From Anaerolineae bacterium (lineage in GTDB: Bacteria > Chloroflexota > Anaerolineae > J102), in contig JALXCB010000166.1 in the NCBI GenBank assembly GCA_026991225.1, positions 1 to 38,372 of the forward strand: a DNA stretch of 38,372 nucleotides, in the 5' to 3' direction. Positions 8,410-35,836 of the stretch are shown here, piece by piece. Position numbers and translations under genes: made by a program. Each line of letters begins with the position of its first letter. Position 1 is the stretch's first letter. Under the pieces are notes generated by a model that ran no database searches, was not told the origin of the DNA, and was given only the letters and a program-made list of their open reading frames with translations.

Positions 8410-8662
8410 ATCTAAACTGAAAGCAAATTGAAACCAAGGCTTTTGGTTCGCATTGGATCATCCATGAAAGGCGATTCTCTGGCCGCGCCGCCGCCCGCAG
8501 GTTCACCTGCGGGCTAAAAACGACGCCCCATAAATGGGGCTATGGCGCATGTCGCGCGCCGCGGGAAGCCGGGTTCACCCGGCGTCGTTTCGTAGCCCGG
8601 CGCTTCAGCTCCGGGTGGCCGAGGCCGAAAACACCTGATTTCAAAATGCGTTTAGTTTAGAT
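8410..8662. mobile_element. MITE-like element carrying hairpin core 'beta'
   Basis: Imperfect TIRs ATCTAAACTGAAAGCAAATTGAAACCA / revcomp ATCTAAACTAAACGCATTTTGAAATCA; inside are serial hairpins (8494-8513, 8525-8540, 8568-8583, 8596-8615). No clean target duplication seen. Confidence 0.65.
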
Positions 8663-8701
8663 AGTCTCGATTCCCGCAGACAATCCTTCGTTTTTGATCT
8701 T

Positions 8702-8983
8702 TAGTGAGCGTCTAAAAATTACTTCCCTTTTTCGCCGCAACACTGGCCGAGTGAACTCGGGCTCTTTAGGCGCAAGCCCCCTCCTTTGCTTCCTCCCCCG
8801 CTTCGAGACGGGCGGGGGAGGAAATAAGGAAGGAGGATTCGATGGCGCCGGTGGTCGCCCTTCGGCGACCCTTTTGTTTGTTGTCGTTTTGGACGGCGGA
8901 GGCCGTCCACTGGCCGCAGGCCTGAAGCGCACGACTTGAGTCGGTGAGCACAAAAACGGAACTAATTTCTGGACGCGCACTTA
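8702..8983. mobile_element. MITE-like element carrying hairpin core 'alpha'
   Basis: Imperfect TIRs TTAGTGAGCGTCTAAAAATTACTTC / revcomp TAAGTGCGCGTCCAGAAATTAGTTC (20/25 by eye); internal hairpins at 8747-8760, 8853-8870, 8891-8908; core shared with 35582-35795 in inverse orientation. Confidence 0.65.
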
Positions 8984-9051
8984 GTCTTTCTCCGCTCCTT
9001 CGTACCCCTTCCTAGAAGTCGCAGAAACAACGCCACCCCATCCCAACCTCC

Positions 9052-9477
9052 ATGCCCGCCACCTACAAACCCAAGCCCACTTTCTACATCTATGCGCTGC
9101 TCTTCACCCTGGCCACCCTCTGGCTTGGCTCCGAGGCGTGGAAACGGGGAGAGCTCGTGTGGTGGATCATGTTCGCGGGCGTGGGTTTCATCGCCATCCG
9201 CATGATTTTGGCCTCCTTCGCCCGGGCGGAGTTCGATGGCGAAACCTTCGTCTACCGCACGCCTTTCCGCAAACCCCACCGGGTGGATCGCCAGCAACTG
9301 GCCCTGGTGGAGATGGGCGGACGACGAAACGAAGCCCTGGTCATCGGCTATTATCCCCGCGATGAGAACGGACTGGTCACCCTCGACGCCATGCGCTACA
9401 TCAACTGCGTTCCCCTGGAGGGCCAGGGGGAGCTGTTGGATCGGCTGTTGGAGGCCATGCCCGCTTTGGAGCAGTAA
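9052..9477 (+). CDS. Hypothetical membrane protein with possible PH-like domain
   Basis: 141 aa, two N-terminal TM segments then FDGETFVYRTPFRKPHRVDRQQLALVEMGGRRNEALVIGYY. Confidence 0.6.
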   Translation: MPATYKPKPTFYIYALLFTLATLWLGSEAWKRGELVWWIMFAGVGFIAIRMILASFARAEFDGETFVYRTPFRKPHRVDRQQLALVEMGGRRNEALVIGYYPRDENGLVTLDAMRYINCVPLEGQGELLDRLLEAMPALEQ

Positions 9478-9502
9478 TCAGTCATCAGTCGTCAGTCATC
9501 CG
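9472..9502. repeat. Heptad array (CAGTNAT)n
   Basis: CAGTAAT CAGTCAT CAGTCGT CAGTCAT, period 7, containing the TAA stop of the upstream gene. Confidence 0.8.
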
Positions 9503-9520
9503 TTTCGCCCGCGCAGATTG

Positions 9521-9630
9521 GCGCGGAAAGCCAATGCCGTAATACGTAATGCGTGATGCGTAAGCCTTCACGCTTTATGTTTTCACGCATCACGCCCGCG
9601 GCTGACTCGCCCAACACTGGCCTCGCGATC
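9521..9630 (+). repeat. Intergenic CGTRATG heptad/hairpin repeat, copy a
   Basis: GGAAAGCCAATGCCGTAATACGTAATGCGTGATGCGTAAGCCTTCACG...TTCACGCATCACGCCCGCGGCTGACTCGCCCAACACTGG; same layout at five other sites. Confidence 0.75.
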
Positions 9631-9661
9631 CTCAATCCTAATCCTGATCCTGCAAACGACC

Positions 9662-10408
9662 ATGCCCGTCCTCGTTCCCGGCCTCACCGGCACCATCATC
9701 AACACCATCACCGTCATCCTGGGCAGCCTCATCGGCATCTTCATCGGTCACAGGCTGAGCGAGAACACCCAGAACACGGTGCTCCACGGCCTGGGCCTGG
9801 TCACCATCATCGTGGCCATCGACAACGCCATTACCACCCAAAACATCCTCATCCCCCTGTTCGCCATCATCATCGGGGCAATGCTGGGGGAATGGATGCA
9901 GTTGGAGGAGCGGCTGGAGGCTCTGGGCCGCTGGATGGAGCGCACCTTTGGCGAGCGTTTGGGCGAGAAGGATGAGAACCGGTTGGTGCAGGCCTTCGTC
10001 ACCGCCAGCCTGGTCTATTGCGTGGGCCCCCTCACCATCATCGGCTCGGTGCAGGACGGACTGGTCAACAACTACGAATTCCTGCTGCTCAAGGCGGTGC
10101 TGGATGGCTTCGCGTCCATCGCCTTCGCGGCCAGCCTGGGCCCGGGCGTCATCCTCTCCGCCATCACCGTGTTCCTGTTCCAGGGCGGATTGGCCCTGCT
10201 GGCCATGCTCTTCGGCGGCGCGTTGGGCGGCGTCACCGCGGACAACCCCGCTGTCATCGAGATGACCGCCACGGGCGGCATCGTTCTGCTCAGCATTGGA
10301 TTCATTCTGCTGGGCATTAAGCGTCTGCGCGCGGCCAACTTCCTCCCCGCCATCTTTCTGGCCCCCGCCTTCGTCGTCCTGCTACAATGGCTGGGCCTTG
10401 GTTTTTGA
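9662..10408 (+). CDS. DUF554 family membrane protein
   Basis: 248 aa; GTIINTITVILGSLIGIFIGHRLSE... and ...VYCVGPLTIIGSVQDGL... typical of DUF554. Confidence 0.85.
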   Translation: MPVLVPGLTGTIINTITVILGSLIGIFIGHRLSENTQNTVLHGLGLVTIIVAIDNAITTQNILIPLFAIIIGAMLGEWMQLEERLEALGRWMERTFGERLGEKDENRLVQAFVTASLVYCVGPLTIIGSVQDGLVNNYEFLLLKAVLDGFASIAFAASLGPGVILSAITVFLFQGGLALLAMLFGGALGGVTADNPAVIEMTATGGIVLLSIGFILLGIKRLRAANFLPAIFLAPAFVVLLQWLGLGF

Positions 10409-10437
10409 AATCTGTCCTGCCGATTTCGGAAAACCTC

Positions 10438-10550
10438 AGCAGCCACGTTGGGCGAGAAGCTGATACGAAAAACGTGATGCGTGATGCGTCATGACTTCAC
10501 GGATTACGGATTACGTGTCACACCCGTGGCAGACTCGCTCAATGTTGATT
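10438..10550 (+). repeat. Intergenic CGTRATG heptad/hairpin repeat, copy b
   Basis: ACGTTGGGCGAGAAGCTGATACGAAAAACGTGATGCGTGATGCGTC...GGATTACGTGTCACACCCGTGGCAGACTCGCTCAATGTTG. Confidence 0.7.
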
Positions 10551-10601
10551 TCGAATCATTTTTCACGCAAACGCAACATTCTTTTCAAAACCGGAGTCCC
10601 A

Positions 10602-10976
10602 ATGTTCACCCTTGCCCTGCGCAAAAAATTCATCGCCCATCATCATGCCGCCTCGGAGATCGATGCGGACCACCCCATGCGATCCCATCTCTATATCCTC
10701 GAAGTCATGCTGGAAGCTGAGGAGCTGGACAGCGAGGGGTATGTCCTCGATCTGGACGAGCTGGAAGCCGAGGTGGATGACATTCTTTCCCAATACGCCT
10801 ACAAAAGCCTGAACGACGCCGAAGCCTTCCAGGGGCGCATGCCCACGCTGGAGGCGTTCGCCCAGGCGCTTGGCGACGCCATCAATGAGAGCCTGTACGC
10901 ACCCCATCTCACCGCGCTCAGCGTGCGCCTGTGGCGGGATGAGAAAGCCTGGGCGTTGTACGACATCGAGAGATGA
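10602..10976 (+). CDS. Divergent 6-pyruvoyl/6-carboxytetrahydropterin synthase (QueD-like) family protein
   Basis: 124 aa from ATG 10602; layout FIAHHHA...HPMRSHLYILEVMLEAEELDSEGYVLDLDELEAEVDDIL...LND...PTLEAFAQ matches the PTPS family. Confidence 0.62.
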   Translation: MFTLALRKKFIAHHHAASEIDADHPMRSHLYILEVMLEAEELDSEGYVLDLDELEAEVDDILSQYAYKSLNDAEAFQGRMPTLEAFAQALGDAINESLYAPHLTALSVRLWRDEKAWALYDIER

Positions 10977-10980
10977 GATC

Positions 10981-11403
10981 ATGGCTGTCAAAACCCGCGA
11001 ACTCCACTTCGCCACGCAACCTAATTGCGACTTCATCGATTTGACCCATCAGGTGCAGGAGGCGCTGGACAGCACCGGCCTGACCAGCGGGACGGTGACC
11101 ATCTTCACGCCCAGCAGTACCAGCGCCCTCACCACCATCGAATACGAGTCGGGCGCGCTGGCCGACCTGGAGCGCTTCTTCGACCAGGTGGCGCCCCAGT
11201 TCGGGCAGGAGTATCGTCACAACCTGCGCTGGGGCGACGGCAACGGCCACAGCCATCTGCGCGCGGCCATCATCGGGCCCGACCTGCATGTGCCTTTCGT
11301 CCATGGTCGGCTGACGCTGGGAACCTGGCAGCAGATATTGTTCATCGAGTTCGATGTGCGCCCCCGCCAGCGCCGGGTCATCCTGCAATTTATCGGGGAA
11401 TGA
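10981..11403 (+). CDS. YjbQ/UPF0047 family protein
   Basis: 140 aa from ATG 10981; IFTPSSTSALTTIEYE...GHSHLRAAIIGPDLHVPFVHGRLTLGTWQQILFIEFD motifs. Confidence 0.9.
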   Translation: MAVKTRELHFATQPNCDFIDLTHQVQEALDSTGLTSGTVTIFTPSSTSALTTIEYESGALADLERFFDQVAPQFGQEYRHNLRWGDGNGHSHLRAAIIGPDLHVPFVHGRLTLGTWQQILFIEFDVRPRQRRVILQFIGE

Positions 11404-11432
11404 AAAAAACGCCCGCGAAGCGGGCGTTTTTC
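11403..11432 (+). terminator. Rho-independent terminator after YjbQ gene
   Basis: AAAAAAACGCCCGCGAAGCGGGCGTTTTT: perfect 9-bp GC-rich stem, A/T flanks; also usable by the convergent minus gene. Confidence 0.85.
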
Positions 11433-11450
11433 TTTGGCGCTGTTGGGACG

Positions 11451-11732
11451 CTATTTGCGTTTTCGGGGCACGAATTGTTCCAGGTTCATGACCGCGAATA
11501 GCCGATACTCGACGGTTTCGGGCAGTTCCGGCGGATTTTCCCGGAGCTGATGCACGAGATAAAGGGTCTTGTTCAGCGTATCGAAGACGACGCGGCAGTT
11601 GTGGCACACCGCCAGATGCGCCTCCAGTTCCGCGCAGAGCTCAGGCGATAGCTCGCCATCGATATAATCATTGAGATGTGACAACACCTCCTGGCAGTCG
11701 GAGATGTGTTGATGTTGGGGATGGGAACTCAT
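11451..11732 (-). CDS. Putative zinc-finger anti-sigma factor (zf-HC2)
   Basis: 93 aa; HLNDYIDGELSPELCAELEAHLAVCHNCRVVFDTL, H-x3-C-x2-C type motif; directly follows a sigma-factor gene. Confidence 0.85.
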   Translation of the reverse strand: MSSHPQHQHISDCQEVLSHLNDYIDGELSPELCAELEAHLAVCHNCRVVFDTLNKTLYLVHQLRENPPELPETVEYRLFAVMNLEQFVPRKRK

Positions 11733-11753
11733 GATGTTGGCCGGGGACTGGGA

Positions 11754-12362
11754 TCAGGCGAAGTGGGGCGCCAGGAGCTGACGGAGACGCAAGCGGGCCC
11801 GATGCAGGCGCACTTTGGCGGCGGACACGCTGATGCCCAGGATTTGGGCTGTCTCCTCGGTGCTGTATCCTTCGATCTCTCGCAAAATGAAGACGGTGCG
11901 CAGGGTGTCGGGCAATTCGGAGATGGCTTTCTCCAGCACATCGCGCACCTCGCTGTTCATGGCGTGATCATCGGGGGCAAGAGTCCAATCCTGGACTTCG
12001 CGATAGATATCATCGCCATCTTGAACCTCAATGGGTTCATCCAGCGAGACCTCGCGATGCTTGCGCTTGCGCAGGTGCATCAACGCCGCGTTGGTGGCGA
12101 TGCGATGCAGCCAGGTGCCCAATGCGCTCCGCTCTTCGAATTTGTTGATGTTCTTGCATGCGCTGATGAACGTCTCCTGAAGGACTTCTTCGGCGTCGTC
12201 CGGATCGTTCAACATGCGGATGGCGATGGCGTACACCCGCGGTGCGTACTGCTTGATCATGCAGGCGCAGGCCTCGGGGTCGCCCCGTTTGAGGCCCGCA
12301 ACCAGCGCGGCCTCATCGGGATAAATGTCGAGATCGATTTCGATTCCAGTCATTGGATGCAA
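11754..12362 (-). CDS. RNA polymerase sigma-70 family (ECF-like) sigma factor
   Basis: 202 aa; region 2 (MLNDPDDAEEVLQETFISACKNINKFEERSALGTWLHRIATNAALMHLRKRK) and region 4 (FILREIEGYSTEETAQILGISVSAAKVRLHRARLRLRQLL). Confidence 0.93.
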   Translation of the reverse strand: MHPMTGIEIDLDIYPDEAALVAGLKRGDPEACACMIKQYAPRVYAIAIRMLNDPDDAEEVLQETFISACKNINKFEERSALGTWLHRIATNAALMHLRKRKHREVSLDEPIEVQDGDDIYREVQDWTLAPDDHAMNSEVRDVLEKAISELPDTLRTVFILREIEGYSTEETAQILGISVSAAKVRLHRARLRLRQLLAPHFA

Positions 12363-12470
12363 CTCGTGGGGATTCCGTTACCCGGTATGGTTTTGGGGTG
12401 GCTTTTCATCATACCCCATTCGTAAGGAAAATGGAAAAACTTCGGTTTCTTCACGCCCTTATCGAGGCTT

Positions 12471-13046
12471 TCAGCCTTCGGCCGCGGTCCATTCCCTTCT
12501 CAACGCATCCAACACCAGCCTGTCGGTGGGGAAGGCCAAAGGTTCGGGGATGGCGTCCAGGGGGAACCAGGCCGCCTGGTCGAGATCATCGCCCGCGCGC
12601 AATTCACCCCCTACGATCTCACAGCGGAACCACACGCCTACCGTGTGTTGAGCGGGATTGTGGAAATTGGAATGCACGGCCACGACCTCGCCCACCCGCA
12701 CGTCCAGGCCCGTCTCCTCCCGACACTCCCGCCGCGCAGCCTCGCGGATATCTTCATCCCATTCCACATGCCCGCAGGGGATGCACCAGGCGCCGGGATA
12801 GGAGCTGTGCGGCGCCCTACGCCCCAGCAGAATGCGGTTCCCATCCAGGATCACCGTCGCCACGCCCACGGTGGGGTTGCGATAATGAATGAATCCACAC
12901 TGGGGGCAGGCCATGCGCATGCACCCGCCTTTCTCCAGGGGAAGGAGCGGCGCAGCGCAATAGGGACAATAACGAAAAGGGCCGTTCGCGGGGGTGCGTC
13001 CCAATTTTTTGGCAAGACCTCCGGGAGGTGGCGTCAAACGCTTCAT
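12471..13046 (-). CDS. NUDIX hydrolase with N-terminal zinc ribbon; predicted start codon lies inside a MITE
   Basis: 191 aa; CPYC...CPQCG zinc ribbon and NUDIX box GHVEWDEDIREAARRECREETGL; first ~19 codons overlap the repeat element at 12991-13114. Confidence 0.85.
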   Translation of the reverse strand: MKRLTPPPGGLAKKLGRTPANGPFRYCPYCAAPLLPLEKGGCMRMACPQCGFIHYRNPTVGVATVILDGNRILLGRRAPHSSYPGAWCIPCGHVEWDEDIREAARRECREETGLDVRVGEVVAVHSNFHNPAQHTVGVWFRCEIVGGELRAGDDLDQAAWFPLDAIPEPLAFPTDRLVLDALRREWTAAEG

Positions 13047-13114
13047 TTTGCCCCAAACTCTGTCGCCACCTCCCGGAGGTCGCCTACGTCGCCAATTATT
13101 TGGGACACACCCCC
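12991..13114. mobile_element. MITE 1 (long-hairpin type), adjacent to MITE 2
   Basis: TIRs GGGGTGCGTCCCAATTTTTTGGC / revcomp GGGGTGTGTCCCAAATAATTGGC; internal GACCTCCGGGAGGTGGCG...CGCCACCTCCCGGAGGTC palindrome; flanked by (C)CGTTCGCG on both sides (8-9 bp, exact border ambiguous because of G/C runs). Confidence 0.82.
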
Positions 13115-13123
13115 GTTCGCGAG

Positions 13124-13342
13124 GGGGCGTCCCAAATTATGGGCGCGTTGCGCCTGACGCCCCGGAGGTGAACCTCCGGGCTAGAAACGACGCCCCCTCA
13201 AGGGGGCTTTCAGAGCCAGCCCCCGCCCAAAGCCGGGTTCACCCGGCGTGGTTTTGTAGCCCGGCGCTTCAGCGCCGGGTGGAGCCCGCATGACCGAATT
13301 CCTGATGACAACGCGATTTGCCAAAATTTTGGGACACACCCC
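13124..13342. mobile_element. MITE 2 carrying hairpin core 'beta'
   Basis: TIRs GGGGCGTCCCAAATTATGGG / revcomp GGGGTGTGTCCCAAAATTTTGG; perfect 9-bp duplication GTTCGCGAG at 13115-13123 and 13343-13351. Confidence 0.85.
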
Positions 13343-13447
13343 GTTCGCGAGGGTGGTTGATTTTAGGGGGGGCATTGTGTAAAATAGACTTGGCGTAAAA
13401 GTCTTCTTTCGCCATTCATCACGCTCCCACGTTGCAGGAGAAGCATC

Positions 13448-13810
13448 ATGGAAGTCATCAAGGTATCGGCCCGTTCCCGCTCCACAGCTGTCGCCGGAGC
13501 CATTGCTGGCGTGATTCGCGATCAGGGGTACGCCGAAGTTCAGGCCATCGGCGCCAGCGCGGTCAATCAGGCCGTGAAAGCGGTGGCCATCGCCCGGGGT
13601 TATCTTCAGGAGGATGGCATCGCCATCGTCACGATTCCTGTTTTCGTCGAGGTGGATATCCAGGGGTTGGAGCGCACCGCCGTCAAACTGGTGGTGTGGA
13701 CTGTTGATCACGCTACTCTGCCCGAGCAGCTTACAGCTTTGTTCGAGGCGGAACAGGCCGCGAAAGCGGCGTCGCTTGCTTCGGAGAGTGCGGCGTCACC
13801 GGAGGAATGA
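13448..13810 (+). CDS. Stage V sporulation protein S (SpoVS) family
   Basis: 120 aa; MEVIKVSARSRSTAVAGAIAGVIRDQGYAEVQAIGASAVNQAVKAVAIARGYL matches SpoVS. Confidence 0.92.
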   Translation: MEVIKVSARSRSTAVAGAIAGVIRDQGYAEVQAIGASAVNQAVKAVAIARGYLQEDGIAIVTIPVFVEVDIQGLERTAVKLVVWTVDHATLPEQLTALFEAEQAAKAASLASESAASPEE

Positions 13811-13831
13811 CGCCCGAAGACGGAGATTGCG

Positions 13832-14848
13832 TTATCGGCGGACGCTGGCGAGGAACCGCCGCCATCCTTCATCATTTTCGCCGGGGCGGAAGGGGATATA
13901 CAGGGTCGCGCGTTGGAGCAAATCGCCATAGCGGGCCTGGATGGCCGGGCCGATCTCGTCCCACGCGCCCGTGATCGCGAACGTATCCACCATCTCGTCG
14001 GAGATGAGCGCGGGCATGGCCGCCCATTCCTTGCGCACGGCCAGTTTGCCCAGCCGGTCGCCGATCTCGCCCCAGCCGTGCTGCTCCAACACCGGGCGAT
14101 AGGAGGGCGTGGACGCGTAGAAGGCGATCTGCATCCGCACCTCCTGCCGGCGCTGCGCCCGCTCCTTTTCCGTATCCCCCACGATGGCGAAGACCGTCGT
14201 GCTGAAGATGACGTCCTCCACGCGCCGACCTGCTTTGGCCGCGCCCGCGGCCACCCACGGACGGATGCGCTCCCGCAGGTAGTCCACCGTGTGGAAGGGA
14301 TGGACGTGAAAGCCGTCGCACAGCTCCCCCGCCAGCTCGCACAGCCGTCGATTGACGCCCGCGATGTAGATGGGGATGTCGGGATGAGCGATGGGGCCGG
14401 GGTTGAAGAAGGGGGACATGAGGGTCATCTTGTAGAACTCGCCCCGGAAGTTGAGCCGCTCGTTGTGCTGCCAGCCATGCCAGATATGCTTGAGCGCCAG
14501 GATGTATTCCCGCAGCCGGGCCGCGGGCTTGCTCCAGGGCATGGCGAAGCGCCGTTCAATGTGGGGTTTGATCTGGGTGCCCAGGCCCAGGATGAAGCGT
14601 CCATCGCCGTAGCGGGCCATGTCCCAGGCCACGTAGGCCATGTGCATGGGACTGCGGGCGAAGGCCACGGCGATGGCCGGGCCGAACTCGATGGTTTGGG
14701 TGTGTTCGGCCACCAGGGCCAGTTGGGGGAAGGGATCGTGCCGGGTTTCGGGCGTCCAGATGGCGTCGAAGCCCAGGGCCTCGGCCGCGCGGCTGGTCTC
14801 GCGGATTTGCTCTAAGGTGTCTGCGTCGAGCACGATATCGAATTTCAT
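13832..14848 (-). CDS. LLM-class F420-dependent oxidoreductase
   Basis: 338 aa from ATG 14848 (MKFDIVLDADTLEQIRETSRAAEALGFDAIWTPETRHDPFPQLALVAEHT...FILGLGTQIKPHIERRF). Confidence 0.87.
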   Translation of the reverse strand: MKFDIVLDADTLEQIRETSRAAEALGFDAIWTPETRHDPFPQLALVAEHTQTIEFGPAIAVAFARSPMHMAYVAWDMARYGDGRFILGLGTQIKPHIERRFAMPWSKPAARLREYILALKHIWHGWQHNERLNFRGEFYKMTLMSPFFNPGPIAHPDIPIYIAGVNRRLCELAGELCDGFHVHPFHTVDYLRERIRPWVAAGAAKAGRRVEDVIFSTTVFAIVGDTEKERAQRRQEVRMQIAFYASTPSYRPVLEQHGWGEIGDRLGKLAVRKEWAAMPALISDEMVDTFAITGAWDEIGPAIQARYGDLLQRATLYIPFRPGENDEGWRRFLASVRR

Positions 14849-15104
14849 GGGGAAAATCCTGTGGAAAAGCTGTGGAGGTTGTGGAAAAAGGTGGGGAAAG
14901 ATAAAAACAGTATCCCACATTCCCTTTCGTCACCCAAACTTGCAGCAATTCCATGAATGCGTGTATAATCTCTCTCGATACAAGCGCCGGGGACCCCAAG
15001 CGAAGTGGGGCGTTTTTGCGCGTCCTGTTGGAGAGGAGCAAAGAACGTGTTCAGCATTCAGTCTTGATAGAGGCGTATCTGCGCCAAACCGATGAAATCA
15101 GCCT

Positions 15105-15220
15105 GCAGCCAGGTTGGCACAGGAAGCCAGGGGCGTGAAACGTGAAGCGTGATGCGTAAGGCCCTCACGTTTTACGTTTTCACGTCTCACGTCCGTTGTC
15201 TCGCCCAACCTCGGCTTTTC
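15105..15220 (+). repeat. Intergenic CGTRATG heptad/hairpin repeat, copy c
   Basis: GGAAGCCAGGGGCGTGAAACGTGAAGCGTGATGCGTAAGGCCCTCACG...TCACGTCCGTTGTCTCGCCCAACCTCGGC. Confidence 0.7.
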
Positions 15221-15267
15221 GGATCTTTCGCAACCACTGCCAGCGCTATTGACGGAACCATCCCATC

Positions 15268-17146: not shown

Positions 17147-17150
17147 ACTC

Positions 17151-17232
17151 AACACGGATAAAAGAGGACACGGATGAAAGCTTTTTGAATAACTTCGTGT
17201 CTTCGTTTCCTTCGTGCCTTCGTGGCAAAACA
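17151..17232. repeat. Hairpin-type repeat 'gamma' without recognisable TIRs
   Basis: AACACGGATAAAAGAGGACACGGATGAAAGCTTTTTGAATAACTTCGTG...CCTTCGTGCCTTCGTGGCAAAA closely matches the core of the MITE at 22523-22648. Confidence 0.65.
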
Positions 17233-17249
17233 GAGGAACAACCATCGCC

Positions 17250-19064: not shown

Positions 19065-19068
19065 ATCC

Positions 19069-21187: not shown

Positions 21188-21329
21188 GTAACTGCTAACG
21201 TACCCCGGTTAACAAACCACAAAGGGCACAAAGGCACTAAGAACACGAAGAAAAAATGTAAAAATTCCCCTTTGTGCCTTTGTGTCTTCGTGTTCTTAGT
21301 GGTTTTCGGGTGACGACCTTAGTAGTTAC
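21188..21329 (+). mobile_element. GTAACTGCTAA-family MITE, copy 1
   Basis: TIRs GTAACTGCTAACGTA / revcomp GTAACTACTAAGGTC; perfect 8-bp duplication GAAAAATC at 21180-21187 and 21330-21337; internal CACAAAGG...CCTTTGTG hairpin. Confidence 0.9.
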
Positions 21330-22522: not shown

Positions 22523-22648
22523 GTAACTGCTAACGTAGCCCTGTTCACTCGACACGGATACGAGGAAACACGGATAAAACCTTTTTGAATGACTTCGTGC
22601 CTTCGTGGCAAAAGCGGGGTGATTGGGGCCAACTACCTTAGCAGTTAC
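22523..22648 (+). mobile_element. GTAACTGCTAA-family MITE, copy 2
   Basis: TIRs GTAACTGCTAACGTA / revcomp GTAACTGCTAAGGTA; flanks AAAAATGG / AAAAATTG (7/8 match); core 'gamma' at 22551-22613. Confidence 0.85.
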
Positions 22649-26256: not shown

Positions 26257-26267
26257 TGTGCAACCCA

Positions 26268-27614: not shown

Positions 27615-27682
27615 AGTGGGATTGGAATGAGGATTGGGGATTCGGGTTGGCGCTCCGGCTGGTCCGGGTTAGGGGAAATGCC

Positions 27683-27889: not shown

Positions 27890-27995
27890 CTCATAAGCTA
27901 TTGTAGCACAAAGGAGGCGCCCATGCTGGCTTTCAATGAGGGATGTGAGATTGCCATCGCATGACACTGACTTTCACAACCAGACCGATTTCTTG

Positions 27996-29798
27996 TCACT
28001 TGCTCCCATTGCCGCCGACCATGCCGTAGCCCAGTTGCATGACTTTGCGGATGAAGGCCCGTTCGCGGGAGCTTGGGATGAGCAGGGTGCGGTCGTCCAG
28101 CAGGCGGCAGTAGCGGCGCAGTTCGGGGTCTTCGAGGATGGCGTTGCGCACTTCGGGCCGCCGCACCTGGATGGTGATCATGGTTCGGCCCTTGCGCAGG
28201 GCCGTGCTGTCGGCCTCGGCCTGGTCCAGCCAGTCCTCCACCACGGGCGAGAGGGGCCCGTCGTGGCGGGCGAGGAGCAGCTCCTTGCGCTCTTTCAGGG
28301 TGTTGTCCAGTTGTTGGGCTTGCAGCCACAGGGTTTTGTCCAGACGGAATCGTCCATCTTCGCCCTCGACGCCCACCAGGGGGAGGATTTGATGCTGGTA
28401 GGGGAGCAGCGGGTCGCGGGTGGGCTGGAAGATGAGGTCTTCGTCGATGACGTAGAAGCGTTCGGAGATGGATTTGGGCAGGTAGTAGCGGCGGGTGTGG
28501 CCCAGCAAATACGCGCCCAGGGGATTGATGCGGAAGTAGGTGAGGCCGTCGTAGCGGGTGTAGGGGGTGATGGGCCGCTGCCAGCTTTCGGTGGGCGCTT
28601 CGAGGAAGGGCGGGGCGTGCTGTGGTTCGGTGTAGGCCAGGTCCAGCGCGCCGATGCTGCCCAATATCTCGAAGAGGATGACCAGGGTGTAAGCGCCCTG
28701 CACCGCCCGCCACGGGTCTTTCAGCTCGTCGATGCTCATCTTGCGCCCGTTCATGTCGTCGATGGCGTTCAATTCCGGGTCCACCTCGAAGTCGTGCTGC
28801 CAGAGTTTGAGTGCGGTGAAGAAGTCATCGACGCTGAGCCAGGCGTTGTGCGGGCTCCAGGACAGGGTTTCGATGATTTTGTCGCGGCGTTCGGAGGGAG
28901 GCGTGCGCTGGTCGCTTGGCTTGTTGACGTTGCGCAGGTGGTCGATGCGGTCGATTTCGTCGTAGAGCGTGTTGTTGGTCCAGGCGTCCAGGGCGTCCAC
29001 CAGCAGGTCGGAACTCGGGCGGATGAGCCATTCCCAGCCCATCGGGGTGAGGACGAGGGTCGTGTTGTAGCCCGTGCGCGGCCCCAGCTTGACCAGACCG
29101 CTGCCCAGGGCGAAGCGCACCAGCCCCACCGGTTTGATGGTGTCGTAGGGGTCTTTCACCCGCTGATAATTCAGGAAGTCCCCCGCGGCCAGGTTGTCGA
29201 GAATGAGCTGCGCGCTCTCGAAGGTGGGCAACATGCGGTCGTTGACCTGGAGTTTCTTTTGTCCGGCCAGGGCCAGGACCATGGTCAGGTCTTGCAGGCC
29301 CGCTTCGGGCCCGGGGCTGCGCTCGAAGCCGATGGATTCGTAGCGGGGCGGCGGCTCGGGGTGAACGGGCATCTCCCAGCGTTCGGGCTTGGGCGCAACC
29401 ACCCGCAGCAGGGGATAGAGTTCGGAGAGGATGCGTTTGTCCTCATCGAGGAAGAGGTCGAGCTCGGAGGGAATGTAGCCGCTCCAGTATTTTTGCGGGG
29501 GCGGGGGGGCCTGGCCGTAGCGCAGGCGCACCAGATCGGGCCGGTAAGTGCCTTCGGTGGTGTGGACGGTGAAGCTGATGGCTTTTTGGGTGATGGGGGA
29601 GAGCTTGTCCCACAGTTCTCGCAGCGCGCTTTTGCTGTGCAATTGTTGGATGAGATAGAAAATGGCTTCATCCCGGCGCACTTCGTTGGGATTGGGATGC
29701 CCCACCAGTTTGAGGAGGGCGCGCAGCGCCTTCAAATCGAAGCGGGTGAAGTGGCGGAAAAGTTCTTCCTGGATGGCTTTGATGGCGCTTTCAGTCAT
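27996..29798 (-). CDS. Large hypothetical protein, possibly with XPB/Ssl2 N-terminal-like (helicase-associated) regions
   Basis: 600 aa from ATG 29798; winged-helix-like N-terminus (LWDKLSPITQKAISFTVHTTEGTYRPDLVRLRYG); overlaps upstream SWIM gene by 8 bp. Confidence 0.7.
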   Translation of the reverse strand: MTESAIKAIQEELFRHFTRFDLKALRALLKLVGHPNPNEVRRDEAIFYLIQQLHSKSALRELWDKLSPITQKAISFTVHTTEGTYRPDLVRLRYGQAPPPPQKYWSGYIPSELDLFLDEDKRILSELYPLLRVVAPKPERWEMPVHPEPPPRYESIGFERSPGPEAGLQDLTMVLALAGQKKLQVNDRMLPTFESAQLILDNLAAGDFLNYQRVKDPYDTIKPVGLVRFALGSGLVKLGPRTGYNTTLVLTPMGWEWLIRPSSDLLVDALDAWTNNTLYDEIDRIDHLRNVNKPSDQRTPPSERRDKIIETLSWSPHNAWLSVDDFFTALKLWQHDFEVDPELNAIDDMNGRKMSIDELKDPWRAVQGAYTLVILFEILGSIGALDLAYTEPQHAPPFLEAPTESWQRPITPYTRYDGLTYFRINPLGAYLLGHTRRYYLPKSISERFYVIDEDLIFQPTRDPLLPYQHQILPLVGVEGEDGRFRLDKTLWLQAQQLDNTLKERKELLLARHDGPLSPVVEDWLDQAEADSTALRKGRTMITIQVRRPEVRNAILEDPELRRYCRLLDDRTLLIPSSRERAFIRKVMQLGYGMVGGNGSK

Positions 29799-30564
29799 GG
29801 TTTTGTTCCGGTTGTTGATGGACCCAGGCAAGGGTTTTTTCGGTCACCGTGTCATACACAGGCCGGAGGATGTCCTCCAGATCGAGGGCGGTAAAAGAGG
29901 GGCGCCCCAGGCGTTTGAAATGCGGCATGGGGACTTCGGGTTTGGCGAGATGGAAGGAGATGTCGTTGATGGCGGGCCCGATCTCCCAAAAATGGTCCAA
30001 CATCTGCTCCAATGGCGGGTCTTCGAAGAGTAGGACGGTCTTTTCTTCCGATACGGGACGGGTGGGGGATCGATGTTCGCGCAAAGCGTCCAGCAGGTCG
30101 CCGCGGGCCCGGCCGCGGAAGTAGAAGAGCAGGAAGGGATCTTTCTCGAACTGCTCGGCCAGATAGTAGTAGACGCCCGCGATGTGTTTGCAAGGCACTT
30201 CCCAATCGGGGCAGGTGCAATGGGCTTCGAGTTTGTCGGCGTTGGCGAAGAGAGAGGCGTCGGTCTCCTGGATGACCTCGATGATCTCGGGCGGGATTTC
30301 GCCTTGCAGGAGTTTGGCGCTGAAGAGGGCCTGGCTGGCCAGCCGGTCGATGATGCGATCCCACGTGGCGTCGTCGATGGGCGGATAGTGGATGTCCACT
30401 TCGTAGGTCTTGCGGCCATCTTTGACTTTGGCCCGGATTTCGCCGGGCAGGATCTCCAGGTCTTTGATGGCTTTGTCGTTCGCGTATCGCCGCCCGCGGC
30501 GCATCCGGCCGGGGTGGGAGAAGGCCAGCAGGGATTCGAGCCAGGCGTCGGACCAGGTCGTCAT
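29791..30564 (-). CDS. SWIM zinc-finger domain protein
   Basis: 257 aa from ATG 30564; LEAHCTCPDWEVPCKHIAGVYYYLAEQFEKDPF is a canonical SWIM CxC...CxH motif. Confidence 0.92.
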   Translation of the reverse strand: MTTWSDAWLESLLAFSHPGRMRRGRRYANDKAIKDLEILPGEIRAKVKDGRKTYEVDIHYPPIDDATWDRIIDRLASQALFSAKLLQGEIPPEIIEVIQETDASLFANADKLEAHCTCPDWEVPCKHIAGVYYYLAEQFEKDPFLLFYFRGRARGDLLDALREHRSPTRPVSEEKTVLLFEDPPLEQMLDHFWEIGPAINDISFHLAKPEVPMPHFKRLGRPSFTALDLEDILRPVYDTVTEKTLAWVHQQPEQNHD

Positions 30565-30569
30565 GGGGG

Positions 30570-30616
30570 ATGGAGTCAGTGAGCAGTGAGCAGTGAGCAG
30601 TGAGCAGTAATCGGTG
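30570..30616. repeat. Heptad array (CAGTGAG)n
   Basis: CAGTGAGCAGTGAGCAGTGAGCAGTGAGCAGTAATCGGTGGTG: period 7. Confidence 0.85.
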
Positions 30617-30722
30617 GTGCGGGGAGCCAATGCCGTAATGCGTAATACGTGATGCGTAACGATCTCACGTATCACGTTTCACGCATCACGTTCGTTGTCG
30701 CCTCGGCCAACTTGGGATTCGC
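30617..30722 (+). repeat. Intergenic CGTRATG heptad/hairpin repeat, copy e
   Basis: GGGGAGCCAATGCCGTAATGCGTAATACGTGATGCGTAACGATCTCACG...CACGCATCACGTTCGTTGTCGCCTCGGCCAACTTGGG. Confidence 0.75.
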
Positions 30723-30756
30723 GAATCCTTTCATCGCCGAGAGCAACACGCTATGT

Positions 30757-33700
30757 TCAAAGCATCTTGTCCTTGTGCAGGGAAATCAGCTCGACCAGTT
30801 CATCGTCGGAGAGTTGGGCCAGCCAGCTTTCGTCGGTTCCGATGATGGATTCGGCGAGCTGGCGTTTGCGCTCCAGCATCTCCTGGATGTTTTCTTCCAG
30901 GGTGCCCGCGGTGATGAATTTGTGAATCTGCACGTTGCGGGTCTGGCCGATGCGGAAGATGCGGTCCGCGGCCTGTTTCTCGACGGCGGGGTTCCACCAG
31001 CGGTCGTAGTGGAAGACGTGGTTGGCCGCGGTCAGGTTCAGGCCCAGGCCGCCCGCTTTGAGGGTGAGGATGAAGATGGGGGGCGCGTGGGGGTCTTCCT
31101 GGAAGCGGTTGACCATCTCCTGGCGCTTGCTGCCGGGCACGCCGCCGTGCAGGTAGAGCACGGGCGCATCCAGGGCCGCGGGCAGGTAGTCGGCCAGCAG
31201 ATAGCCCATCTCCGCGAATTGGGTGAAGATGAGGGCCTTGTCCCCCACCTCCAACAGTTCCTCCAGCATGGCGGTGAGGCGGTCGAGTTTGCCGCTGCGC
31301 CCAGCCAGAGGTTCTTTGGGAATCTGGTTGGGGCCGATGCTGTACAGGTATTGGACGGGATGGTTGAGGATCTGCTTGAGTTTGGTGAGCAGGTTGAAGA
31401 CGTGGATGCGGCGTTCGCCCCCGCGGGCGTCGGCGATGCGGGGCAGGCTCTCCTCCACCACCTTCTGATAGAGTTCGGCCTGCTCTTCGGTGAGGGTGCA
31501 GTAGACGTCCATCTCCAGGCGTTCGGGCAGGTCCTGGATGACGTTGGGGTCGGTTTTGAGGCGGCGGAGGATGAAGGGGCGCACCATGCGCTGCAATCGG
31601 GCCAGGGCCACCGGGTCCTGATAGTTTTCGATGGGCAGGGCGAATTCCTTGCGGAATTTGGAGCGGCTGCCCAGATAGCCCCGGTTGGTGAAGTTGAACA
31701 GGGACCAGAGCTCGGACAGGCGGTTTTCGATGGGCGTGCCCGTGAGCGCGAAGCGATAATCGGCCCGAAATTCATTGACGACGCGGGTGATCTGCGCGTT
31801 GGGATTCTTGATCATCTGCGCTTCGTCGAGGATGACGCCGAACCAGTGTTGTTGGCTCAGAAAGTCGGCGTCGCGGCGGGCCAGCGCGTAGCTGGTGAGG
31901 ACGATGTCCTGATCCCGTACGGCATCCAGGAAGGCCCGATCCCGCGCCCGATCCGGGCCGTAGTGGGTGTAGACTTTCAGCGACGGGCCGAAGCGCATGA
32001 TCTCCCGCCGCCAGTTGCCCAGCAACGACGTGGGGCAGACCAGGAGCGTGGGCGCGGGCAGGCTGCCGCGTTCGACCTGTTCTTGCAGCAGAAAAGCGAT
32101 GGCCTGCACCGATTTGCCCAGGCCCATGTCGTCGGCCAGGATGGCGCCCAGGCCGCGGTGGTAATGCTCTTCCAGCCAGGCCGCGCCATAACGCTGGTAG
32201 GGGCGGAGTTTGCCCTGCAGGCCGGGCGGCTGCGGCGCTTCGCGCAGAGCCTCATCCCCAACCGTCAACCGTTTCAACAACGGCGGCAGCCATCCGCCCA
32301 ATTGCACGCTGTGCACGGGCAGGCCCGAAATCCGCGTGTGCTCATCGAAGGCCAGGGCGACGCGGATGCCATGCAGCAGGCTGAGCTGGCCTTCGAAGGT
32401 GTGGCGTTGCCAGAAACGCTCCGCAGCTTCGATCTGTTCCGGGTCCAGGCGCAGCCAGCGGCCATTCTGCTGCACCAGCGGGGAGCGCAGATTGACCAGC
32501 TCGATGAAGGCTTCCCGGGTCAGGGTTGTGCCGCCCAAGACCAGCTCCCATTGGTAGGCGATGGGCTTTTCGGGGGCGTCGTCTCTGGCGATGTCGATGG
32601 GTTCGGGCGTGGTGGGGTTGAGATGCAGCTTCAGGCCCAACCGCGCGCCCGCTTCTTCCCACCAGGGGGGCAGGATGATGCTGAAGCCGCTCTGTTCGAG
32701 CAGAGGCGCAGCTTCGCGCAGAAACTGATAGACTTCGGTGGTGGTCAGCGTCACGCCCGTAGGCGCGGCGGAGCGCAGACTTTTTTCGATGGGAGCGAAG
32801 ATATTGGCGGCGATCCCCAGCCCCTCCAGCAATTTCTCCTGCGGATAATCGAAGCGCAACCCCTGGCTGATCAGCGTCTCCTCTTTGGTCTGCCAGACCT
32901 GTGCAGCGGGAACGAGGATGTTCGGGTCGGTGCGAGAACGAAGGAAGTAGCGAAGCTCCCAGCCGCCCGGCGGCACATGCCAAATCTGTTCGTCGGAGGG
33001 GGCGGGCGGCGGGGGTTCCAGTTTGAAGGCGATGGTGTATTGGGTGCTGCCTGCGGGAAGCAGATTGCGCTGCCAATCCTCCACCTGAGAAACCAGCCGC
33101 CGCAAACGTTCGTCGGGCGGGCCGATGACGGGCTCGGGCCGCACCAGGGCTTTCATCCATTGCGCCACGCCATCGCTGTTGTGGAGATAGCCGATGTGAT
33201 GCGGCGCTTCCGCGCCCCACGTGCGGGCGAGAAAATCGACGGCGTGGGAGACGAAAGCGTGGATCAACTGGACGGACGTGGGCGTCTTCCCCCGATCATC
33301 CTGCTCCGCCCGACAGACGGGAGGCATGGCCTTCGCCAGCTTGTAGAGCTTCTCCTTGATCGCCGGCGTCTCGAAGACGGTGCGCCAGCGGGCCTCGACC
33401 CGATCGTGGTGGAGGAGGATGGTGGGCACGTAATCCTGATGGGCGAGGAGCTCTAGCGCCAGCATGAGGACCCGCCGCCAGAAGAGGAGGTCTCGCCCGA
33501 AGATCAGGTGTTCGGGACAATCGCAGGATGCGAGGCTGCGCAGGATGTGAAGGACACTCTGGAAGGGCACGCGTGTGCCCCGAATGATCCAGGGCTCCAG
33601 CCGCGGATCCTTGAGATCGATATCCCAGCTTTGGGGCAGGGCGGGCGAGGGAAGGGGGCCCGTGCGCGTGGATGGCAGCAGCAGCGTGAACGTCTCGGTT

Positions 33701-33972
33701 CCCAGGGTGATGAGCGAGGAATCGAAACGGCGCAGTTGCCGGGCGATGAGCGTGGATTCCGTTTGGGCGAAGGGATGGGGCCGCGGCTTGGGATGCGCGG
33801 GACGACGCCCGCGCGGGCGTTTGGGCGGCGGAGCGCCGGCATTCTCCGCCCAAAACACAAAGCGCGGGTCATCCTCGGCGCCTTTGCCTGCGCGCCAGTG
33901 CAGATGGAGAACGAGTGGGAATAGCTCTTCAGTGGACGAGACTTGAAGAGTTCCCGGAGACGCAATGCTCAC
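30757..33972 (-). CDS. SNF2-family DEAD/DEAH helicase
   Basis: 1071 aa; AILADDMGLGKSVQAIAFLL, ILDEAQMIKN, ALTGTPIENRLSELWSLFNF, LTLKAGGLGLNLTAANHVFHYDRWWNPAVEKQAADRIFRIGQ. Confidence 0.96.
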   Translation of the reverse strand: MSIASPGTLQVSSTEELFPLVLHLHWRAGKGAEDDPRFVFWAENAGAPPPKRPRGRRPAHPKPRPHPFAQTESTLIARQLRRFDSSLITLGTETFTLLLPSTRTGPLPSPALPQSWDIDLKDPRLEPWIIRGTRVPFQSVLHILRSLASCDCPEHLIFGRDLLFWRRVLMLALELLAHQDYVPTILLHHDRVEARWRTVFETPAIKEKLYKLAKAMPPVCRAEQDDRGKTPTSVQLIHAFVSHAVDFLARTWGAEAPHHIGYLHNSDGVAQWMKALVRPEPVIGPPDERLRRLVSQVEDWQRNLLPAGSTQYTIAFKLEPPPPAPSDEQIWHVPPGGWELRYFLRSRTDPNILVPAAQVWQTKEETLISQGLRFDYPQEKLLEGLGIAANIFAPIEKSLRSAAPTGVTLTTTEVYQFLREAAPLLEQSGFSIILPPWWEEAGARLGLKLHLNPTTPEPIDIARDDAPEKPIAYQWELVLGGTTLTREAFIELVNLRSPLVQQNGRWLRLDPEQIEAAERFWQRHTFEGQLSLLHGIRVALAFDEHTRISGLPVHSVQLGGWLPPLLKRLTVGDEALREAPQPPGLQGKLRPYQRYGAAWLEEHYHRGLGAILADDMGLGKSVQAIAFLLQEQVERGSLPAPTLLVCPTSLLGNWRREIMRFGPSLKVYTHYGPDRARDRAFLDAVRDQDIVLTSYALARRDADFLSQQHWFGVILDEAQMIKNPNAQITRVVNEFRADYRFALTGTPIENRLSELWSLFNFTNRGYLGSRSKFRKEFALPIENYQDPVALARLQRMVRPFILRRLKTDPNVIQDLPERLEMDVYCTLTEEQAELYQKVVEESLPRIADARGGERRIHVFNLLTKLKQILNHPVQYLYSIGPNQIPKEPLAGRSGKLDRLTAMLEELLEVGDKALIFTQFAEMGYLLADYLPAALDAPVLYLHGGVPGSKRQEMVNRFQEDPHAPPIFILTLKAGGLGLNLTAANHVFHYDRWWNPAVEKQAADRIFRIGQTRNVQIHKFITAGTLEENIQEMLERKRQLAESIIGTDESWLAQLSDDELVELISLHKDKML

Positions 33973-34060
33973 AAAATCGATCCTTTTTCAAGGAATATGG
34001 CTGTACAACGCACCCCGGCGAGAGGACGAGAGAAAACAGGCCTGACAGCTGTGGAAATTG

Positions 34061-34191
34061 GTAACTGCTAACGTACCCCGGTTCACAAACCACAAAGGAC
34101 ACAAAGGCGCCAAGAACACGAAAAAATGTATAAATTTCCCTTTGTGCCTTCGTGTTCTTAGTGGTTTTCGGGTGACGACCTTAGTAGTTAC
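34061..34191 (+). mobile_element. GTAACTGCTAA-family MITE, copy 3
   Basis: TIRs GTAACTGCTAACGTA / revcomp GTAACTACTAAGGTC; perfect 8-bp duplication GGAAATTG at 34053-34060 and 34192-34199; core nearly identical to copy 1. Confidence 0.9.
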
Positions 34192-34241
34192 GGAAATTGA
34201 CGAGTTTCAACCAGCGACAGCGGATAAGGAAGTGCGTCGCA

Positions 34242-34395
34242 GTAACTGCTAACGTACTTGACTTTAGGCCGCCAAAAGCCACGAAGGCTCGAAGTTTTTC
34301 GAAGACACGAAGGAAAAATCAAGGAAAATACGTCGTGCCTTGGCTTTTCTTCGTGTCTTCGTGGCAAAAAGTGGTGGCGATACCTTAGCAGTTAC
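34242..34395 (+). mobile_element. GTAACTGCTAA-family MITE, copy 4
   Basis: TIRs GTAACTGCTAACGTA / revcomp GTAACTGCTAAGGTA; perfect 8-bp duplication GCGTCGCA at 34234-34241 and 34396-34403; different internal hairpin from copies 1 and 3. Confidence 0.9.
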
Positions 34396-34642
34396 GCGTC
34401 GCACGTTTATTCAGACAGCGGCGAGAGAGTTGCTACTGTGTGAGCGCGCGGATCGTCGAAACGACCTTAGACCCATGCAATTGGCTAGATTATTGCTCCG
34501 TGCACCAATAGCATCGCCAAACGGAGAAAAACTGCTGATGCCATTTACCGTCAACTATTATCCCCGATTTTCGGTATTTTGACAAGTTTTGTAAACAGTC
34601 TGGCGGCGGGCGAGCCCGCGTCGATACAGATGAAAACGCCTC

Positions 34643-34760
34643 GCGGCCAGGCGAGCGCGGGAAGCCAAGCACGTAATGCGTAATGCGTGATGCGTAAGGA
34701 CTTCACGGGTTACGCATTACGCATCACGCCCGTTGCAGGCTCGCTCAACGTCGGCCCGGC
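34643..34760 (+). repeat. Intergenic CGTRATG heptad/hairpin repeat, copy f
   Basis: GGGAAGCCAAGCACGTAATGCGTAATGCGTGATGCGTAAGGACTTCACGGGTTACGCATTACGCATCACGCCCGTTGCAGGCTCGCTCAACGTCGGC. Confidence 0.75.
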
Positions 34761-34789
34761 GACCCTTCCGCAACCGCAGCCAACACTCC

Positions 34790-35515
34790 TTACTCCCACT
34801 CGAACGGATGCGATTTGCCTTGATAGATGTTATCCAGGATGGTCATCTCGCGGTCGTGGATCGCGTTCAGGAACTTGTCGGCCTTGCCCATGTGGCGGAA
34901 GGAGGCATAGCCGTGTTCCAGGAAATCCTGCAATTCGTGCCAGCCCGCTCGATGCGCGGGGCCTCGGGCCGCGCGCAGCATCCAGCCGATGACGCGATGC
35001 CTGACCAGCTTCTCCAAATCCCGACCGATTTCCACGATCATCTCGATTTGCTTCACCCGATCATCGTAATTGTCGCACAGACGGTAGGCTTCCGCATATT
35101 GCTCCTCCGAAATGCTGTCGGTAACTCCAGCCTGGTTCAGCAACGCGTCCAACAGTTTGGCGTCCAGCTCCTCGGTCAGGTTGTTGAGTTCGATGGCCTT
35201 GGTCAGGGTGCGCAGCGCCCGCGCGGGAATGAAACGGGACATGAATTCGTGTACCCGTAGAATGTCTGCGTTGCGCTGGCTGAAGTCCTTGGGCGCGTAG
35301 ATGTCATCCAGGAAGAAGCGGCACGCGGGCTCGTAGCGGGGATCGGCCAGGAAATCGGCGTAGGTGCGGGCCAGGCGCTGCGCCTGCCAGGCGCGCAGCA
35401 TCGCCATCTCGGGCGAAAGTCCGCCGCCCTCGACGCGTTGATGGCTGAGTTCGTCATGTTTGCGCAGGGCCGCCACCAGGCGGGCCGCGTCTTTGGGAGA
35501 AAGCGCTTCGGTCAT
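34790..35515 (-). CDS. Conserved hypothetical protein
   Basis: 241 aa from ATG 35515; contains CRFFLDDIYAPKDFSQRNADILRV; all-helical appearance, no catalytic motif recognised. Confidence 0.7.
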   Translation of the reverse strand: MTEALSPKDAARLVAALRKHDELSHQRVEGGGLSPEMAMLRAWQAQRLARTYADFLADPRYEPACRFFLDDIYAPKDFSQRNADILRVHEFMSRFIPARALRTLTKAIELNNLTEELDAKLLDALLNQAGVTDSISEEQYAEAYRLCDNYDDRVKQIEMIVEIGRDLEKLVRHRVIGWMLRAARGPAHRAGWHELQDFLEHGYASFRHMGKADKFLNAIHDREMTILDNIYQGKSHPFEWE

Positions 35516-35581
35516 GGTTGAGTGTGGCAAAAGGGGATTTCTCTCAGATTAGAGTATCACAGGCGGATGCAGGTTACGCAA

Positions 35582-35795
35582 GGGTGCGTTTCAAAAATGG
35601 GGCGCACTAGCCGACTCAAGTCGGGCGCTTCAGGCCTGCGGCCAGTGGACGGCCTCCGCCGTCCATTTTCACCGTATGCAACAGGTCGACGAAGGTCGAC
35701 CACTGGCGCGAAGCGCCCAAAAAGCCCGAGTTTACTCGGTCAGTGCTTGGCGACGAATCGACGATGATTTTTTGCCCCCAAATTGAAACGCACCC
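35582..35795. mobile_element. MITE carrying hairpin core 'alpha' (inverse orientation to 8702-8983)
   Basis: Perfect 13-bp TIR GGGTGCGTTTCAA / TTGAAACGCACCC; perfect 9-bp duplication GTTACGCAA at 35573-35581 and 35796-35804. Confidence 0.92.
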
Positions 35796-35836
35796 GTTAC
35801 GCAAATCGAAAGCGCACAAACAGAGAAAACAGAATC

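Follow-up and report, generated by a model that had tools for sequence, protein, structure and literature searches.

REP-like hairpin cores are shared among several MITE shells in an Anaerolineae bacterium

In an uncultured Anaerolineae bacterium, the same structured cores lie inside different TIR shells, and the pairing of cores with shells is many-to-many across the genome. The window is the whole stretch of DNA that was analyzed, 38,372 nucleotides in length, and its features are listed in Table 1. We think it likely that the cores are REP-type units from Y1 loci that were enclosed repeatedly in MITEs and then reassorted. The genomes used are fragmented MAGs. Loci were picked through core or TIR matches, and the counts given are not a census.

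Shells and cores in the window

Terminal repeats were found where the first-pass annotation of the window had placed them. The shells look like MITEs: they have TIRs, are short and non-coding, and occur in many copies. The target duplications are 3 bp for shell A, 8-9 bp for B, C, F, and X, 9 bp for E, and 8 bp for G; at the shell D element (8410), a clear duplication was not seen. The target repeat (C)CGTTCGCG(A)G is common to the X-shell beta element and the adjoining zeta element. Genome-wide, there are 50 matches to the element at 8702, about 45 copies of the one at 8410 (the majority full-length, 96-98%), and more than 40 of the one at 13124. Because of the target duplications and the copy number, we read the shells as mobile MITEs. 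A DDE_Tnp_1 profile search of the genome, a fragmented MAG, found none. No IS-sized pair was among the TIR places listed in the genome, and a search of relatives for shell-E TIRs gave no IS-sized pair either. Neither a transposase of the shells' own nor an autonomous partner with the same TIRs was therefore found among DDE_Tnp_1 matches and listed TIR pairs in this incomplete MAG, so DDE mobility of the shells is argued from TIRs, duplications, and copy number.

Table 1. Shells, cores, and nested modules in the window.
Feature	Position	Strand	Basis
Shell D element, CTAAACT...AGTTTAG ends, beta core inside	8411..8661	+	Ends, copies; no clear duplication
Beta core (REP dimer), two inverted hairpin arms with GTAG/CTAG tags	8494..8618	+	Arms match L268/L399 Y1 flanks
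Shell A element, GTGAGCGTC ends, carries alpha with H2	8704..8980	+	TTA duplication at 8701-8703, 8981-8983
Alpha core, H1-Ha[H2]-H3-linker-H4-H5-H6	8747..8944	+	Arms match L266/L267 Y1 flanks
H2, nested palindromic module in loop of hairpin GGCGC-GCGCC, replacing TTC	8774..8844	+	Same module in other cores
X-shell element, 121 bp, zeta core GACCTCCGGGAGGTGG...CCACCTCCCGGAGGTC	12992..13112	+	Ends, flanks
X-shell element, ends GGGGGCGTCCC / GGGACACACCC, beta core at 13161-13282	13123..13341	+	Ends, genome copies
Gamma-like low-complexity hairpin without TIRs	17151..17232	+	48/57 identities to 22534-22640
Shell G element GTAACTGCTAA, low-complexity core 1	21188..21329	+	8-bp duplication GAAAAATC
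Shell G element, core gamma	22523..22648	+	Ends
Shell G element, core 1 again	34061..34191	+	8-bp duplication GGAAATTG
Shell G element, third core	34242..34395	+	8-bp duplication GCGTCGCA
Shell C element, ends GGGTGCGTTTCAA, alpha without H2	35582..35795	-	9-bp duplication GTTACGCAA on both sides
Alpha core, shell-C-specific linker TGTTGCATACGGTGAAAA	35611..35739	-	Linker comparison

The first-pass annotation had proposed that the same core recurs in different TIR shells. For alpha and beta, this was borne out by alignments against shuffles and by genome-wide copies. Alpha in the 8702 element (8739-8950) and, inverted, in the 35582-35795 element (35601-35760) has 84/100 identities and scores 118, where shuffles reach at most 30. 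For beta in the elements at 8410 (8485-8625) and 13124 (13151-13290), there are 110/138 identities and the score is 126, with the same shuffle maximum. The similarity noted between the two gamma copies was likewise recovered (17151-17232 and 22534-22640, score 67 against a shuffle maximum of 24), but gamma, unlike alpha and beta, is not a REP dimer; it is an inverted repeat of the CTTCGTG type, with low complexity. At least three different cores do lie in one shell, shell G, as had been noted; two of its four elements have a common core (Table 1). Another explanation for the shared cores is convergence, with short GC-rich hairpins arising independently in many elements. The short loops and variable stems would suit this, but the scores are about four times the shuffle maximum, and 80-200 bp are common across shells at 85-98%. 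Convergence is refuted for alpha and beta and is highly improbable as a general account, although it may still explain gamma.

The alpha and beta cores are REPIN-like REP dimers with an arm-linker-arm layout. In each, the right half repeats the left in inverted, diverged form, and the alpha arms also give cross-strand matches. Each alpha arm has three hairpins. Beta bears a GTAG/CTAG tag at the hairpin foot, but no such tag was recognized in alpha. In the core stems, there was little covariation: H3 pair 6 is C:G and A:T, plus G:C in G007, and H4 pair 4 is C:G and G:C. Therefore, no functional RNA is claimed. Rfam gave nothing at gathering scores for the whole window.

Core-shell pairing, mosaics, and the H2 module

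In the genome-wide matrix, alpha occurs in five shells (A, B, C, E, and F), beta in three (D, X, and Z), and delta in two (C and E). A class of three elements pairing shell C with beta was left out; these had X ends with one mismatch and were mis-assigned. The first-pass annotation had set against its own reading a fixed one-to-one pairing, with sharing due to short GC-rich convergence. Since pairing is many-to-many genome-wide, that objection fails and is excluded.

Linkers were compared between different shells within one genome and gave an identity of 0.40, against 0.37 for shuffled sequence. The core hairpins have 0.84-0.94 identity across shells. Near-shuffled linkers together with similar hairpins fit independent captures of cores by shells. 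The sharing could also be simple descent from one ancestral MITE with alpha, whose TIRs diverged or were replaced by lineage. The identical hairpin order across all shells, the constant orientation of the arms towards the core, and the GCGTCC.AGAAAT-like stretches common to A and X ends agree with such descent. However, the linkers between shells are non-homologous, the linker within shell A varies from species to species, A has target duplications of 3 bp but X and E of about 9 bp, E ends are unrelated to those of A and X, and shells C and E each contain delta as well as alpha. We consider a single ancestral MITE quite unlikely. The ends of A and X are somewhat similar, and some shells may share ancestry, with their ends changed later. 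No empty versions of shells A, B, C, E, F, and X were found; the sole empty/filled pair is Z.

Several elements are mosaics. One has F ends with an E linker (C164:5614) and another is a beta-plus-alpha element (C112:91347), both with an intact 9-bp duplication. A third has the order F-C-F (C21:7926), and mismatched ends are seen at C59:20829 (C/E) and C112:30245 (F/B). Some mosaic breakpoints fall within the core.

The H2 module is present in the loops of three core types. Its identity is 0.90 for copies in the same genome but different shells and 0.80 for copies in different genomes but the same shell. The shell arms show the reverse, with 0.54/0.52 and 0.78/0.73, respectively. In the H2 tree, the 23 G000 copies, which come from five shells, all fall in a single group (support 91/92), and the genome label changes 5 times compared with 12 for the shell label. 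H2 thus tracks the genome and not the shell. The exchange of cores between shells suggested earlier is supported by the many-to-many matrix, the mosaics, and this grouping of H2 by genome. Ordinary recombination presumably performs it: homologous exchange or conversion among dispersed copies would generate mosaics and would carry H2/M5 variants into every shell within a genome.

Cognate Y1 loci and palindrome-centered Z

IS200-like Y1 (HUH) transposase genes are flanked by alpha, beta, or epsilon arms, and each arm type has a Y1 clade of its own. In relatives too, the arm type goes with the Y1 clade: for alpha in G000, G001, G005, and more weakly in G006; for beta in G000, G006, G008, and G013; and for epsilon in G006 and G010. 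At L267, two alpha arms tightly enclose the gene with no TIR shell in view, at L266, tandem whole alpha cores lie on both sides of it, and at L268, beta units flank it. Zeta-like palindromes upstream of the Y1 gene at L269 match by motif only, and BLAST gave no match for this link. The His-x-His motif and a catalytic-type Tyr are invariant across 19 Y1 homologues. The alpha and beta Y1 genes score above the cut-offs for Pfam Y1_Tnp and the NCBIfam IS200/IS605 transposase; for alpha, NF033573 (IS200/IS605) gave 66-68 against a cut-off of 55. With NF047646, alpha genes reached 28-32 bits against a cut-off of 80, which places them outside the TnpA-REP/RAYT family, and the Y1 genes are below the REP_Tyr_transpos cut-off. 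Some genomes have two copies of the alpha Y1 gene, whereas canonical RAYTs are single-copy genes. Because the arms flank their own Y1 clades, the cores resemble non-autonomous elements derived from RAYT-type loci.

Alternatively, homologous recombination or gene conversion among MITEs may be all that is at work, with immobile cores and incidental arms beside Y1 genes. Mosaics with breakpoints inside the core and H2 homogenized within genomes would both be expected from it. Yet in several species the type of the arms matches the Y1 clade that they flank, which is the REPtron arrangement of REPs with a RAYT described for RAYTs (PMC6006769). Recombination also requires homology and does not account for how a core first got into a shell unrelated to it. 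We judge this unlikely, and gene conversion as a full account was dropped after Y1 loci with core arms were found.

Z is a MITE of 67-205 bp that enters many different stems, mostly within core hairpins. It lies exactly at palindrome centers in 41/59 copies, compared with 0/142 for other MITEs and 0.5% for random positions. Z is filled in G006 and G008 and empty in G000 and G005, the difference being the beta core, and in relatives it brings the beta core into alpha cores. The earlier idea that cores are themselves mobile is supported, at the level of sequence, by filled and empty Z and by the Y1 genes flanked by alpha, beta, and epsilon arms.

In the explanation we favor, REP dimers would derive from several resident Y1 (IS200/RAYT-like, HUH) loci, and Y1 activity probably put them into MITEs. 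They would have been enclosed several times, independently, by TIRs of several MITE families with marks of DDE transposition. The composites would then multiply by shell transposition, leaving target duplications, with the REP dimer as a passenger. Palindrome-targeting Z, and probably also H2 and M5, would add modules in hairpin loops. More tentatively, there could be a two-layer ecology in which Y1 REP dimers repeatedly enter DDE MITEs, palindrome-seeking MITEs such as Z enter REP hairpin loops, and new transposable combinations keep forming. If so, REP dimers would gain a second mode of spread.

Relation to known systems

These findings bear on the spread of REP/REPIN elements. If ordinary MITEs can package them, how many copies there are and where they lie need not depend on their own transposase, and REP-RAYT dynamics would have to be modeled differently. 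Natural mosaics with intact target duplications offer material for testing exchange among mobile elements that differ in chemistry, and Z, a MITE reading palindrome centers, is a second target-choice system open to testing. The first-pass annotation knew of no described system of this kind. We did not find the layered arrangement, REP elements inside several MITE shells and reshuffled between them, described in the literature; the claim is narrowed because the cores themselves belong with REP/REPIN elements.

Like the cores, REP/REPIN elements with a RAYT (PMC3116915, PMC2817692, PMC6006769) consist of hairpin units paired as inverted dimers around a spacer and reach high copy number; their units also flank Y1 HUH genes, and each transposase clade has its own unit type. 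Here, in contrast, most of the dimers sampled lie within TIR-MITEs that have target duplications, each alpha arm is made of three hairpins with no GTAG tag of the classical REP kind recognized, and profile scores assign the transposases to IS200/IS605. REP dimers also lie regularly within an inverted-repeat frame in GTAG-15 of A. variabilis and CGTC-1 of H. neapolitanus (PMC3733652). There, each family has one frame, whose mobility was not demonstrated, whereas here several mobile frames share cores. BOX and RUP of Streptococcus pneumoniae are modular small repeats that are inserted into one another, as here; in the parts of the source cited (PMC3049150), the number of boxB units varies between fixed ends, and there is no mention of unrelated TIRs exchanging a core. 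In our elements, the ends vary and the core is common. BIMEs and Neisseria intergenic mosaics, in the passages that name them (PMC3049150, PMC3733652), are also mosaics of several repeat families but, unlike the cores here, are not packaged in TIRs of several transposon families. ISRm22, ISPpu9, ISPa11, and others insert into REP palindromes, ISRm22 at the axis, as Z does (PMC1525189). Z differs from these IS elements in being a short MITE that enters many different stems and carries a REP dimer in relatives.

Cores shared between terminal-repeat shells

The window spans the entire contig C166 of G000, a 3.87-Mb MAG that is 97% complete and comprises 201 contigs. The first-pass annotation had proposed that MITEs with different terminal inverted repeats (TIRs), here called shells, share structured cores termed alpha, beta and gamma. 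All three similarities were found in place, with alignment scores far above those of shuffled controls (118 vs 30 for the alpha pair, 126 vs 30 for beta and 67 vs 24 for gamma). Gamma, a low-complexity inverted repeat, lies outside the REP story. The 8702 element (shell A with alpha) has 50 matches across G000, the 8410 element (shell D with beta) about 45 copies, the majority full-length at 96-98%, and the 13124 element (X shell with beta) more than 40, part of them tandem; copies within one MITE family are non-independent. In a scan of 84,980 genomes, from which the records nearest the window were possibly omitted, core pattern matches were confined to Chloroflexota, mainly Anaerolineae plus one Caldilineae.

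The alpha hairpins follow the order H1-Ha-H3-linker-H4-H5-H6, and the right half, read on the other strand, is a repeat of the left in which the stems have diverged. Beta, similarly, is an inverted pair of arms tagged GTAG/CTAG, a tag that was not recognised in alpha. The four-base loop on the alpha H4 stem, which stays the same, reads either GGAG or CTCC (contig C18, C166:35648 and locus L029), as if flipped.

Shells were inventoried in 316 kb of G000 around cores and TIRs; loci were sampled through core and TIR matches, shell and core classes were assigned by sequence patterns, and the genomes compared are fragmented drafts. The X-type pattern occurs at 116 places in the genome vs 0 for the reversed control, and the E pattern at 105 vs 0. 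In G000, the shells that carry alpha are A, B, C, E and F, those that carry beta are X and D, and zeta is carried by X. In relatives, the delta core lies within shell C (G008, plus one copy in G001) and shell E (G001, G006 and G008), so C and E each house alpha and delta, and beta lies within a further shell, Z (G006 and G008). When the transposases of the shells were looked for in G000, no DDE_Tnp_1 gene was found, and none of the listed TIR pairs was IS-sized despite hundreds of MITE copies. The mobilising transposases of these MITEs are lost, unassembled or from another family.

Features of shells, mosaics, MITE Z, Y1 loci and neighboring repeats
Feature	Location	Ends or sequence	Duplication	Description
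Shell A		GTGAGCGTC	3 bp, e.g. TTA	
X group		GGGTGCGTYYYAAA	8-9 bp	subtypes B, C, F and one beta-bearing
Shell E		CTGRTTGACTGACAAA	9 bp	
Shell G		GTAACTGCTAA	8 bp	
Shell D		CTAAACT	none clear	
Mosaic	C164:5614	F ends	intact, 9 bp	E linker
Mosaic, double core	C112:91347	X-type ends	GCAGGGAAC	whole beta and whole alpha core
Mosaic	C21:7926			F-C-F
Mosaic, unlike ends	C59:20829, C112:30245	left and right differ	none	
MITE Z	L272-L368 (G000, G005, G006, G008)	ATGAACRTT.ACAAAAYAATC...		
Y1 locus	L267			alpha arm, Y1 gene, alpha arm
Y1 locus	L266			tandem alpha cores on both sides of Y1 gene
Y1 locus	L268			three tandem beta units before Y1 gene, one beta arm after
Y1 locus	L269			upstream palindrome resembles that of 121-bp zeta element (motif only)
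MITE in MITE	C69:10138-10611, C77:18755-19098			F element with alpha core within G element
Adjoining zeta and beta X elements	window 12992-13341	CCGTTCGCG	three copies of this target repeat flank and separate them	as if second insertion reused the first one's duplication
Further repeat family	window 9523, 10451, 15133, 17092, 30619, 34657	CGTAATGCGTGATGCGTAAGG..TTCACGCATTACGCATCACG		six copies
Inverted repeat adjoining D element	window 8297-8402	GACGTCATTCCGA-like (ACGTCATTCCGACGACCGA...TCGGTCGCT...TCGGAATGACGT)		

Reassortment and probable enclosure of cores

Among the 58 alpha cores read in G000, ends and linker agree in most and several are mosaic. The two copies with unlike ends and no duplication are as expected for crossovers. 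Of the nested modules H2 and M5, neither, H2 alone or both may be present, and each of shells A, B, C, E and F shows all three states, the shell C copy with M5 (C143) being cut by a contig end. H2 identity tracks the genome whatever the shell (0.90 within and 0.80 between genomes), and shell-arm identity tracks the shell (0.54/0.52 between different shells in one genome vs 0.78/0.73 between genomes for a given shell). All 23 G000 copies in the H2 tree, from five shells, form a single group (support 91/92); label changes number 5 for genome vs 12 for shell, with many inner branches weak.

Linkers from different shells of one genome are barely more alike than shuffled sequence (0.398 vs 0.367), in contrast to the hairpins of those cores, which are 84-94% identical, and within shell A linkers vary between species. 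The simplest reading is that REP dimers were enclosed in shells repeatedly and independently. The sole comparison of empty and filled states is Z, whose coreless form in G000 and G005 measures 68 bp and whose form in G006 and G008, with a beta dimer inside, measures about 204 bp.

Insertion into palindromes

H2 is located in hairpin loops of three core types, alpha, delta and epsilon. MITE Z sits at the exact palindrome centre in 41 of 59 distinct copies; the corresponding figure is 0 of 142 for insertions of other MITEs and 106 of 20,000 for positions drawn at random. Among the palindromes that Z has entered are alpha H1, several hairpins of beta and a few that lie outside the cores. Since identical 68-bp copies are present in both G000 and G005, which are two species, Z was active recently or transferred. 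In G006 and G008, Z bearing a beta dimer lies in the H1 loop of alpha, which is one observed route placing one core into another. Certain ISs insert at the axis of REP palindromy (PMC1525189).

Y1 transposase genes and known REP systems

GTAG-tagged REPs in the literature (PMC3733652) were the lead that prompted a search for Y1 transposases. G000 has five such genes, four of them in the table; the fifth (L265, contig C125) is followed by other GTAG-type hairpins (GTAGCCCGAGGGTTCCAGCCTCGGGC). The five proteins are 135-197 aa and all are Y1_Tnp in Pfam. NCBIfam places four of the five in IS200/IS605 and the remaining one in the REP type, with a score under the REP-type cut-off. Solved IS200-type transposases are related to the alpha Y1 protein, and the 19 homologues compared show no variation at H-x-H and Tyr. 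Homologues of the alpha Y1 gene, 54-99% identical, occur in G001, G005, G006, G010 and G029, with clear alpha arms alongside in G001 and G005 and a weaker variant in G006. The beta-type Y1 clade (G006, G008 and G013) bears beta arms, and epsilon arms are found at Y1 loci L391 and L374. We infer that a Y1 enzyme made the REP-dimer insertions into shells.

No description of REP dimers common to several TIR shells was found in a search of open-access papers. The nearest precedent is in A. variabilis and H. neapolitanus, where REP dimers sit inside palindromic frames (PMC3733652). The REPIN layout (PMC3116915) and the REPtron arrangement of RAYTs (PMC6006769) have been described. The arrangement of arms and Y1 gene here matches these systems, but no GTAG tag was recognised in alpha and the Y1 proteins are nearer IS200.
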